Positions 17,037-56,360 of a stretch of 64,000 nucleotides of DNA are shown here, piece by piece. The DNA is from Pseudactinotalea terrae. Lineage in GTDB: Bacteria; Actinomycetota; Actinomycetes; Actinomycetales; Beutenbergiaceae. The notes beneath the pieces were generated by a model, which ran no database searches, was not told the origin of the DNA, and worked only from the letters and a program-made list of their open reading frames with translations. The position numbers and the translations under genes were made by a program. The stretch's first letter is position 1. Each line of letters opens with the position of its first letter. The stretch lies in contig NZ_WNXZ01000006.1 in NCBI RefSeq assembly GCF_009733845.1, positions 186,001-250,000 on the forward strand. Reading direction: 5' to 3'.

Positions 17037-17110
17037 CGCCGAGTTCGCGGACGATCGTCGAGTTCGCTTGGTGCTCCCGACGAGCTCGGCGTTCTGCACC
17101 GAACTGGGCG
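17037..17110. repeat. Mirrored-word intergenic element A
   Basis: Four 11-base copies of the word CGCCGAGTTCG: direct at 17037-17047 and 17056-17066 (CGTCGAGTTCG), inverted at 17081-17091 (CGCCGAGCTCG on the minus strand) and 17100-17110 (CGCCCAGTTCG on the minus strand). The step is 19 bases on both sides and both pairs share the centre 17073.5. It lies downstream of the EamA gene and upstream of the DGPF genes. Confidence 0.7.
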
Positions 17111-19272: not shown

Positions 19273-19342
19273 CCAGATTCGGGTCCAGATCGCCGAATCG
19301 CCCTGATGTGAACGCTCACCCGGAATCTGGCCACGACTTTGG
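19273..19342. repeat. Mirrored-word intergenic element B
   Basis: The word CCAGATTCG occurs at 19273-19281, shortened as CCAGATCG at 19285-19292, inverted at 19322-19330 (CCAGATTCC on the minus strand) and inverted and degenerate at 19334-19342 (CCAAAGTCG). The step is 12 bases on both sides and both pairs share the centre 19307.5. Flanking TTGCACCA/TGGTGCA extends the stem. It separates two converging genes. Confidence 0.6.
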
Positions 19343-46053: not shown

Positions 46054-46661
46054 CCGCTGACCAGACCGTCGCCGCGATCGCCGAGCAGGGCGTCGTCGGC
46101 ATCGTCCGCGCGACCACCGCCGAGGCCGGCCGCACGGCCGCGCGCACCTTCCTCGACGCGGGGCTGGCCGCCGTCGAGGTCTCGCTCACCACCCCGGGCG
46201 CCCTCGAGACGATCGCGGAGCTCACCGAGAGCGGCTGCGCCGTCGGCGCCGGCACCGTCCGCACGCTCGCGCAGGCGCGCGACGCCCATGCCGCCGGGGC
46301 CACCTTCCTCGTCAGCCCGCTGCTCGACCTGCAGGTGGTGCGCTACGCCGTCGAGAACGATCTGGCAGCCCTGCCGGGCTGCCTGACCCCGAGCGAGATG
46401 ACGACGGCGCAGCGAGCCGGGGCGCAGCTCGTCAAGATCTTCCCCGCCCACCTGTGGAGCCCCGCGGCGCTCGCCGGGATGCTCGAGGCGATGCCCGACC
46501 TGCGCTGCGTGCCGACCGGTGGCGTGAGCGCGGAGAGCGGGCCGGAGTGGGTCCGCGCCGGTGCCGTGGCGGTGGGCGTGGGTGGCTCGCTCACCCGCGC
46601 CGAGGACCCGCGCGGCGCGGTGGCCGACCTGCTCGCCGCCATCCAGGACGCGCGTGCCTGA
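46050..46661 (+). CDS. 2-dehydro-3-deoxy-6-phosphogalactonate/gluconate aldolase
   Basis: A 203-residue class I aldolase (KDPG/KDPGal family) splitting the phosphorylated keto-deoxy acid into pyruvate and glyceraldehyde 3-phosphate. Schiff-base Lys is in LVKIFPAHLW; Glu in AAVEVSLTTPGA and the PTGGVSAES phosphate loop are present. The E-V-S-L version and genomic setting favour the galactonate enzyme (DgoA type). It overlaps the kinase stop codon by ATGA. Confidence 0.88.
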   Translation: MTADQTVAAIAEQGVVGIVRATTAEAGRTAARTFLDAGLAAVEVSLTTPGALETIAELTESGCAVGAGTVRTLAQARDAHAAGATFLVSPLLDLQVVRYAVENDLAALPGCLTPSEMTTAQRAGAQLVKIFPAHLWSPAALAGMLEAMPDLRCVPTGGVSAESGPEWVRAGAVAVGVGGSLTRAEDPRGAVADLLAAIQDARA

Positions 46662-47355
46662 CCGTCAGCACCCGGTCGTGGCCGACCTCGGCCGCCGTGT
46701 CGCGACAGGGGAGCTGGCGGCCGGCTCGCAGGTGGTCCCGGAGGAGGTGGCCGCCCAGCACGGGGTCTCGCGCTCGGTCGTGCGCGAGGCGCTGCGGGTG
46801 CTCGAGGCCAAGGGGCTCGTGCAGCCCAAGCAGCGGGTGGGCACCCGGGTGCTGCCGCCCGAGCGGTGGGACGCCCTCGACGCGGATGTCATCGGCTGGC
46901 GCGTGCAGGGGCCCGAGCGGCTCGCCGTGGTGAGCGACCTCGAGGAGCTGCGCGCCGCCGTCGAGCCCCGCGCCGCGCGGTTGTGCTGCGAGCGCGCCGA
47001 CGCCGCCGACCTCGCGGTGCTGGCCGAGCTCGCCGCGGCGATGCGGCAGCTCGGCTCCCGAGGCGACCTCGCCGGCTTCACGGCCTCCGACGTCGCCTTC
47101 CACGCACGGCTGCTGCGGGCGAGCGGGAACGCCTCGTTCGTGCGGCTCGAGGGGACGTTCGCCGCGCTGCTCAAGGCGCGCGAGGACCTGGGCACCCTGC
47201 CGCACCAGATCTCGCAGGAGGTGCTCGATCTGCACGTGCAGGTCGCCGAGGCCATCGCGGCCCGGGACGCGGACCGCGCCGAGCAGGCCGCGCGCGAGCT
47301 CGTCGACGGCGCCCGCTCCGAGGTGCTCACCCGCCTGGGCGAACCGCCGCCCTGA
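46654..47355 (+). CDS. GntR/FadR-family transcriptional regulator of galactonate genes
   Basis: A 233-residue repressor: N-terminal winged helix (LAAGSQVVPEEVAAQHGVSR, VVREALRVLEAKGLVQPKQ) and C-terminal all-helical FCD effector domain with metal-binding Asp/His residues (ASDVAFHARLLRASGN, DLHVQVAEAI). It resembles DgoR. The GTG start overlaps the aldolase end by eight bases. Probable operator at 45041-45053. Confidence 0.88.
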   Translation: MPDRQHPVVADLGRRVATGELAAGSQVVPEEVAAQHGVSRSVVREALRVLEAKGLVQPKQRVGTRVLPPERWDALDADVIGWRVQGPERLAVVSDLEELRAAVEPRAARLCCERADAADLAVLAELAAAMRQLGSRGDLAGFTASDVAFHARLLRASGNASFVRLEGTFAALLKAREDLGTLPHQISQEVLDLHVQVAEAIAARDADRAEQAARELVDGARSEVLTRLGEPPP

Positions 47356-47358
47356 CCC

Positions 47359-47430
47359 CACGAGATCGTCGTCTCGGCACGAGACCGTGCTCGCGCGAGA
47401 GCGATCTCGTGGCAGACCGACGATCTCGTG
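47359..47430. repeat. Mirrored-word intergenic element C
   Basis: The word CACGAGATCG occurs direct at 47359-47368 and 47378-47387 (CACGAGACCG) and inverted at 47402-47411 and 47421-47430. The step is 19 bases on both sides, with the shared centre 47394.5. The arms are complementary over about 28 bases with two single-base gaps. It fills the space between two converging genes. Confidence 0.75.
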
Positions 47431-47508
47431 CCCTCACGGCGAGGTCGTGGACGGAGGCCGAGGTGTCGAGGCCCGGCCGCCACCGGCGTGTGCGCCCCGT
47501 GTGCGTGG

Positions 47509-48195
47509 TCAGCGGCCGCTCGACCCGGGCTCGGCATCGCGCCGACGCCACCGCTCGGTGAAGAGCGCCCACTCGGGCGGCGGGCCGGGCAGCGGTTCGG
47601 CGGGCTCGGCCCGGAGCCCGTCGAGCGCCACGCGAATGAGCCGTTCGCGCGCACGCTCAGCCGCATCCACCAGATCAGTGCGCCCGTGTCTCACGACCTG
47701 TTCGACGAGCGGTGAGCGGCCGAGCTGTTCGATGAGCAGTACGACGTCGACGTCGTTGATGTCCGGGCGCAGGACCCCCGCCTTCCGCGCGCGTTCGACG
47801 ACCTCGCTCGCCACGGCGTCGCCGCGTGCTGAGAGGTCCGCCATCTCGTCCGTCACCGCCACGGTTCCGGCGATGGAGCCGAGGGTTCCCGTACCGCAGA
47901 GCACTGCTGCGGTGAGGTAGTGCGCAAAACCGCCCCACGGGTCGGGGTCGGCCAGGCCCGCCTGCGCGGCGGCCAGATACTCCTCCAACGACAGCCGGCA
48001 CAGGTGCTGGAGCAGCGCATCTTTCGTGGGATACCGGCGGTACATGGTGCCGATGCCCACGCCCGCCCTGGCGGCGATCGACGCCACCGAGGCGTGCGCG
48101 CCGTCCTCGCTGAAGACGGCGCGCGCGGCGCGGAGCAGCGCCTCGTCGTTCCGCTCCACCTCTTCACGTCGGGCGCGCCGGTGTCGTTCGCTCAT
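47509..48195 (-). CDS. TetR family transcriptional regulator
   Basis: A 228-residue repressor with the N-terminal helix-turn-helix ASVASIAARAGVGIGTMYRRYPTKDALLQ and a helical ligand domain. Its start faces the SnoaL-like gene, and two inverted-repeat operators lie in the shared promoter. No exporter is adjacent, so the SnoaL-like protein is the most likely controlled gene. Confidence 0.88.
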   Translation of the reverse strand: MSERHRRARREEVERNDEALLRAARAVFSEDGAHASVASIAARAGVGIGTMYRRYPTKDALLQHLCRLSLEEYLAAAQAGLADPDPWGGFAHYLTAAVLCGTGTLGSIAGTVAVTDEMADLSARGDAVASEVVERARKAGVLRPDINDVDVVLLIEQLGRSPLVEQVVRHGRTDLVDAAERARERLIRVALDGLRAEPAEPLPGPPPEWALFTERWRRRDAEPGSSGR

Positions 48196-56196: not shown

Positions 56197-56251
56197 GTAC
56201 CTCATCCTCGCAGGTCCGCCGTCTCCCTCGGTCCTCCGGCGGTGCAGCAGC

Positions 56252-56360
56252 GGTGAGCTGGCGTCCACCCAGGGCTGCCGCTGGTGAGCGGGCGTCCATG
56301 GGGCGGCGCGGGGTGGACGCCACGCCACCACCGCTCGGCGGGCGTGGACGCTCACTCACC
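56252..56360. repeat. Mirrored-word intergenic element D
   Basis: A 17-base word occurs direct at 56252-56268 (GGTGAGCTGGCGTCCAC) and 56283-56299 (GGTGAGCGGGCGTCCAT) and inverted at 56313-56329 (GGTGGCGTGGCGTCCAC on the minus strand) and 56344-56360 (GGTGAGTGAGCGTCCAC). The step is 31 bases on both sides and both pairs share the centre 56306. It lies downstream of the VOC gene and upstream of purB. Confidence 0.75.

Follow-up and report, generated by a model that had tools for sequence, protein, structure and literature searches.

REP-like repeats are present in many bacteria. To our knowledge, the RAYTs are the sole known dedicated partner of such repeats, and some REP families are without a known partner. 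The REPIN-RAYT systems consist of dispersed intergenic palindromes, which form inverted doublets, and a single gene that is flanked by its own repeats (PMC3116915, PMC3733652). The CGTC-tagged REPs, named after their terminal tag, have been described with stems of 8-9 bp and loops of 4-5 bp, in an account where actinobacteria are not mentioned (PMC3733652). Two groups of proteins also bear on what follows. Inverted repeats are bound by AbiEi, a component of the AbiE system (PMC3985639), and the MTES_1575 domain has been described in predicted defence proteins of giant size (PMC3710099). The palindromic family described here, F1, is linked to a gene for an AbiEi-like protein, and it is probable that F1 forms one half of a two-part selfish-DNA system in which a dedicated DNA-binding nuclease maintains the palindromes and spreads them.

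The window, which is the whole 64-kb stretch of DNA analysed (C12:186001-250000; GC 71%; genome 4.76 Mb), contains a 74-bp quasi-palindromic element of the F1 family, word type A1, at 47358-47431. The covariance model of the family, R1, scores it at 59.2 bits on the forward strand and 53.0 bits on the reverse. Its layout is W-19-W|W'-19-W' with the core CGANNTCG, and its centre falls at 47394/47395. The first word copy, CGAGATCGTCG, occupies 47361-47371 on the forward strand (element columns 4-14), and the second, a diverged copy that reads CGAGACCGTGC, lies on the same strand at 47380-47390 (columns 23-33). The inner and outer inverted copies are on the reverse strand at 47399-47409 (columns 42-52) and 47418-47428 (columns 61-71). 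A sequence-only reading had described two direct and two inverted copies of one word, a step of 19 within each pair, a shared centre and a long foldable stem. The steps and the centre are as described, and the inverted word CGATCTCGTG is exact at both 47403 and 47422. The forward word recurs at 47359 (CACGAGATCG) and 47378 (CACGAGACCG), but the second version has one mismatch, so that the direct copies are not identical. The predicted RNA fold reaches -47.4 kcal/mol (z = -5.2), and none of 200 shuffles was equally low.

The element is bordered by two regulator genes, both of which, like all genes in this analysis, were called by a home-made procedure. The upstream gene, at 46654-47355 on the forward strand, encodes a GntR/FCD regulator (Pfam GntR, E 1.7e-14; FCD, E 2.7e-24), and its stop at 47355 is 2 bp short of the element. 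The closest named matches of this protein come from Pseudactinotalea suaedae and Actinotalea caeni, with 84-86% protein identity. The convergent gene at 47509-48159 on the reverse strand encodes a TetR regulator (Pfam TetR_N, E 1.7e-12), and its 3' end lies 77 bp beyond the element. No Rfam family matched the 64-kb window above its gathering score, plasmid and phage records gave no similarity match to the element, and the exact four-word pattern was absent from viral contigs, as was any F1-type protein.

The layout is not a product of chance. When 1.61 Mb of the same genome was scanned for four words arranged as W-d-W|W'-d-W', with any step from 12 to 35 and any span, 27 places with step 19 and an even span scored 45 or more, and none did so in a Markov-shuffled copy. 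At a threshold of 42 there were 34 such places, of which 33 are intergenic and share one common 74-bp frame with no indels; the remaining place is an unrelated coding match. A covariance model built from 32 of the 33 intergenic elements gave 149 strand matches genome-wide, equivalent to about 75 F1 copies. The sequence examined comprised roughly 2.0 Mb of this genome (4.76 Mb) and parts of three others, and the rest was followed by positions. Within the window, the model recovers the element at 47358 and a second one of word type B (CGAGTTCG) at 17037-17110, with scores of 64.6 and 54.2 bits. Three other loci of the window had been taken to have the same architecture; this proved correct for 17037, whereas 19273 and 56252, which carry other words and steps, were not matched by the model. 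In sampled sequence, 130 of 131 F1 elements overlap called genes by 20 bp or less. F1 is sparsest on C7, the largest contig, with 0.65 elements per 100 kb; most other contigs have 1.3-3, a difference of about threefold.

Related word types can be distinguished among the 33 intergenic elements: A (CGAGATCG.., which includes the window copy), B (CGAGTTCG..) and C (TGAGTGCGCAC). All of these share GAG..CG, mostly in the form CGANNTCG, and all four words of an element covary. The earlier proposal that the layout is conserved while the word is free is half correct: within the family the core is fixed and the word varies jointly in all four copies, while further palindrome families with unrelated words coexist with F1. 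Base pairing between the two halves amounts to 82.5%, and covariation is far above that of shuffles and slid controls. Mismatch is lowest in the words, at 2-15% for most word positions, and reaches about 40% in the spacer. Since even the latter value still beats chance, the element is a full-length mirror, and each of its arms also contains a direct repeat of about 14 bp. The palindromic word cores are separated by 19, 22 and 19 bp, or about two helical turns each.

The strong fold (z -5.2) and the position of the window copy between convergent genes would suit a bidirectional terminator or a class of mRNA 3'-end hairpins, as would the finding that 54 of 77 elements in codirectional gaps are closer to the upstream stop codon. 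This explanation, also raised in the sequence-only reading, is nevertheless very unlikely. A T-run follows none of 262 element ends, and a terminator search of the window gave no match in the region of 47358-47431. Moreover, copies do occur between divergent genes (13 of 65, a mild depletion against 22 expected). Read in the direction of transcription, the elements show no excess of G-U over A-C cells (80/84, 44/53, 45/38 and 48/41), and hence no visible sign of selection for RNA hairpin formation. Neither the direct repeats nor the linked gene described below would be explained by termination.

The distribution of F1 among genomes indicates both wide occurrence and turnover. Relatives were detected in 14 of 24 genomes of the family, representing 8 of 10 genera, and at a strict threshold in 16 of 149 sampled genomes from other Micrococcales families. 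The earlier suggestion of a REP-like element pointed in the right direction, as the element at 47358-47431 belongs to a family of palindromes dispersed between genes. Each genome has a nearly constant span and step, but lineages differ, with spans of 73, 74, 75 or 77 bp and a step of 19 or 20. The word is likewise coherent within each genome, for instance CGAGTTCGGGG in G004 and G005 and TGAGATCGCACC in G008 and G009. Among 395 genomes of the class, the strict four-word pattern was confined to this genome (G000) and to G331, from another family of the class, where it corresponds to a tandem array with a 19-bp period; this array, at G331:C12:431449-431551, is a perfect repeat of CGAGCTCGACCGCGGTTGG. 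Two congeners, G012 and G013, allow syntenic sites to be compared. In G013, elements in L152, L148 and L154 are absent from the corresponding sites of this genome (L168, with a clean left junction, L074 and L034, respectively). In the syntenic gaps L155/L169 and L131/L018, both sites of each pair contain an element, but of a different word type. The joint change of all four words and the switching of sites between types suggest that elements evolve in concert or insert anew. The F1 copies of this genome have a median identity of 54% to each other; they are mostly old, and any present activity is putative.

Replication or repair, by hairpin template switching and direct-repeat slippage, could in principle make such palindromes and keep them uniform with no dedicated enzyme. 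Some copies have near-perfect arms, and G012 contains local F1 arrays, in which roughly 60-160 bp separate the units, as well as one plain 19-bp tandem array (L130), comparable to that of G331. However, these processes leave unexplained how one word type was dispersed to dozens of sites, why the frame is fixed at 74 bp and why a gene is linked, and as a full account they are very improbable indeed. The footprint of a repair process that had been envisaged earlier may be part of how the elements are maintained, but it does not account for the linked gene. Extremely unlikely is a third explanation, that the F1 elements are MITEs of a conventional DDE transposon. They are short, palindromic, dispersed and intergenic, as MITEs would be, and in an island of another family inverted word arrays flank a gene in the manner of terminal repeats. 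In contrast, the flanks of F1 show no excess of target-site duplications (2-11 bp) and neither they nor the ends are conserved, so a classic transposition signature is lacking. Furthermore, the linked gene encodes a PD-(D/E)XK protein and not a DDE transposase.

This partner gene encodes a protein of about 330 amino acids, whose N-terminal half is AbiEi-like and whose C-terminal half contains a PD-(D/E)XK nuclease core similar to Vsr, DUF559 and MTES_1575. The first examples were found between close pairs of elements, at C9:106798-107775 in this genome and, as a homolog, at L139:10022-11041 in G012. Both proteins match AbiEi profiles. Among the F1-type proteins, matches to the PADLOC AbiEi profile reach E 2.6e-15, and Pfam AbiEi_1 is above its cut-off in one of three; the remaining paralogs mostly match DUF559, MTES_1575 (Vsr-like nuclease) or AbiEi_4 domains. 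Residues E212, D243, E261, D263 and G264, which form the signature E..D..E-x-D-G, are invariant in ten aligned paralogs, and this conserved acidic catalytic signature supports the prediction of a PD-(D/E)XK or Vsr-like nuclease. The C-terminus of the C9 gene (L022:16798-17775) appears to be frameshifted or decayed, and its neighbours are, as we take them to be by eye, tuf-like and rpsJ-like. The nearest called neighbours of the F1-type genes lie 36-1480 bp away and by eye are housekeeping-like, with no obvious AbiEii toxin among them.

The association between gene and element was also recovered in a protein-profile search that was independent of the elements and gave 51 relatives in 20 element-bearing genomes. 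Among the elements listed, F1 copies lie within 300 bp of at least 10 of the 51 genes, and at least 6 genes have one on both sides. Elements flank both sides of the C9 gene of this genome, that of G012 L139 and those of G004, G008, G009 and G080, and one side in G011, G013, G086 and C14 of this genome. The linked genes fall in three taxonomic families (f1, f3 and f9). Controls matched for intergenic space and scaled for element density predict 0.96 genes near an element and 0.017 with elements on both sides (P 8e-8 and 4e-14). After removal of the two founding genomes, 7 and 4 genes remain against 0.62 and 0.005 expected (P 4e-6 and 4e-11). These expectations and P values are estimates, because all controls were drawn from sampled regions of a single genome that are rich in elements, and were scaled by density linearly for one side and quadratically for both. 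At the unscaled rate of this genome, again with intergenic-matched genes, the one-sided association is not significant (P 0.31) and the two-sided one has P 2e-5. An uncorrected estimate of P 4e-16 was set aside in favour of the matched and density-scaled values given above. The other 41 profile-matched genes have no F1 element within 300 bp among those listed, and G001, G005, G010 and G158 contain F1 elements but no adjacent partner gene. In this genome only two F1-type genes were found, beside elements of types B and C, and none dedicated to the window word type A1. The gene beside type B, at C14:44115-45116, is intact, and the F1-type gene of G009 occupies C17:404606-405547. In C14, the stop codon of the gene lies inside an apparent half element, and the syntenic site of G012 is a lone element with no gene.

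Linkage of this kind could also arise if the AbiEi-like protein acted solely as a regulator or chromosome organiser, with the palindromes as its operators, those beside the gene for autoregulation and others throughout the genome, and the nuclease core serving, for example, defence. AbiEi represses its own promoter via inverted repeats (PMC3985639), and the spacing of the palindromic cores at 19, 22 and 19 bp places them on nearly one face of the DNA. The mild depletion between divergent promoters (13 against 22 expected) is also compatible with such a role. However, F1 elements also occur immediately past the stop codon of the partner gene, at 4 bp, where autoregulation needs none, and copies are found at unrelated intergenic sites that differ between congeners. 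Additionally, the mirror pairing reaches into the spacers, and tandem arrays exist. Based on these features, a purely regulatory role seems unlikely.

Other palindrome families, unrelated to F1 in their words and with steps of 28 and 31 bp, coexist in the genome, and some accompany paralogs of the partner gene. Palindromes occur on both flanks of AbiEi/DUF559 genes at C7:75858 (CGGGCAGAACCACCTGCTCG), C9:246058 (AAGTCCACGCTCGATGA), C12:38646 (CGTCCGATCCGCATC), C9:327792 (GTTGCGGAACC) and G012 L131 (GGTTTCAACCCACTTCTGCCCCC). When ranked against 2197 control genes by the rarest word common to both flanks, 8 of 10 paralogs fall within the top 3.3% and 7 within the top 0.25%; without the two founding genes, the Fisher P is 1e-9. 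The genes at C9:303096 and C14:44115 have no ten-base word common to both flanks. Given the high GC content of the genome, gapped flank-to-flank alignment scores failed to set most paralogs apart, whereas exact shared words weighted by rarity did so. Some flank words recur between genes elsewhere, and others occur only at their own gene in the sampled part. The island of G012 L131 consists of a word array, the gene and an inverted word array, about 1.4 kb in all, and is missing from the syntenic site in this genome.

F1 and its partner share many properties with the REPIN-RAYT systems. In both, inverted doublets can form a long hairpin, several families coexist in a genome, copies form local tandem clusters and 3' ends of genes are preferred. 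F1 consists of about 75 short palindromic intergenic copies with mirrored halves, and a dedicated gene is flanked by its own repeats, but it encodes another enzyme, in which an AbiEi-like N-terminal part is joined to a PD-(D/E)XK core. Each F1 arm also possesses a 19-bp direct repeat of the word, and neither a GTAG nor a CGTC terminal tag is evident in the column composition or flank information. A RAYT was considered as partner and rejected: the Y1 transposase (PF01797) is absent from this genome, G012 and G013, and among 24 genomes of the family was found only in G003. Without this transposase or the GTAG tag, F1 is not a member of the REPIN-RAYT systems. The CGTC-tagged REPs resemble F1 as dispersed palindromes, and are without an associated transposase. 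Integron attC sites fold into a hairpin whose arms each contain paired words; in F1, by contrast, the words are also direct repeats, there is no cassette array and the linked gene is not a tyrosine recombinase. The partner matches profiles of AbiEi, the antitoxin of the AbiE type IV toxin-antitoxin system, but unlike AbiE its AbiEi-like part is fused to a nuclease core and the repeats are dispersed genome-wide. With the DUF559/MTES_1575 Vsr-like nucleases it shares the E...D...E-x-D-G core, which is invariant in ten aligned proteins. A literature search that covered few subscription papers revealed no link of DUF559, MTES_1575 or AbiEi to palindromic repeats.

In the two-part selfish-DNA system proposed here, one part would be the palindrome W-19-W|W'-19-W', with four near-identical words of 11-14 bp about two helical turns apart, and the other the AbiEi-like/PD-(D/E)XK gene between or beside palindrome copies. 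The AbiEi-like N-terminal part may bind the words, as AbiEi of AbiE does inverted repeats. The nuclease would then nick or cut either its target or the palindrome itself, which could be in duplex, cruciform or single-stranded hairpin form, and repair would copy the palindrome, with older copies being overwritten by new word types, as has been proposed for RAYTs and REPINs. The repeats, their geometry, their turnover and their linkage to the gene are observed, whereas binding, cleavage and mobilisation by the partner are inferred. A more specific version, in which an actinobacterial DNA-binding Vsr-like nuclease spreads palindromes and overwrites older copies through homing-like cut-and-repair, with several word families that each have a paralogous nuclease, is more tentative. 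If the proposal is correct, a second enzyme family, unrelated to the RAYTs, is tied to its own palindromes, and the REP life-style arose more than once. It would also provide a candidate function for actinobacterial AbiEi/DUF559-type genes and matched word-protein pairs for testing the co-evolution of sequence recognition.

Several further families were observed. The window region at 19273 and C12:325579-325658 belong to a palindromic family with the words CCAGATTCG/CGAATCTGG, of which two copies, and no partner gene, were found in about 2 Mb sampled. A step-31 family unrelated to F1, with words around GCGTCCACC, is found at 56246-56352 of the window, C12:311976 and C7:371435, and no partner gene was found for it in the sampled part. 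The step 28-29 family has the word TTTCAACGCACTT at L038:2295-2410 (C9:232295), C8:69310 and C8:393500, and as TTTCAACCCACTT it flanks an AbiEi/DUF559 gene at G012 L131:4466-4640. Arrays of GTTGCGGAA words with a 51-bp period occur at L042:9910-10165 (C9:319910) and L042:18778-18880 (C9:328778), the latter adjoining an AbiEi/DUF559-type gene. Finally, the second-highest control in the flank-word test is an oxidoreductase-like gene at G012 L137:8519-9739, which lies between two TTGCCGCAACCGCTTGCG sites that are probably operators of the adjacent regulator.
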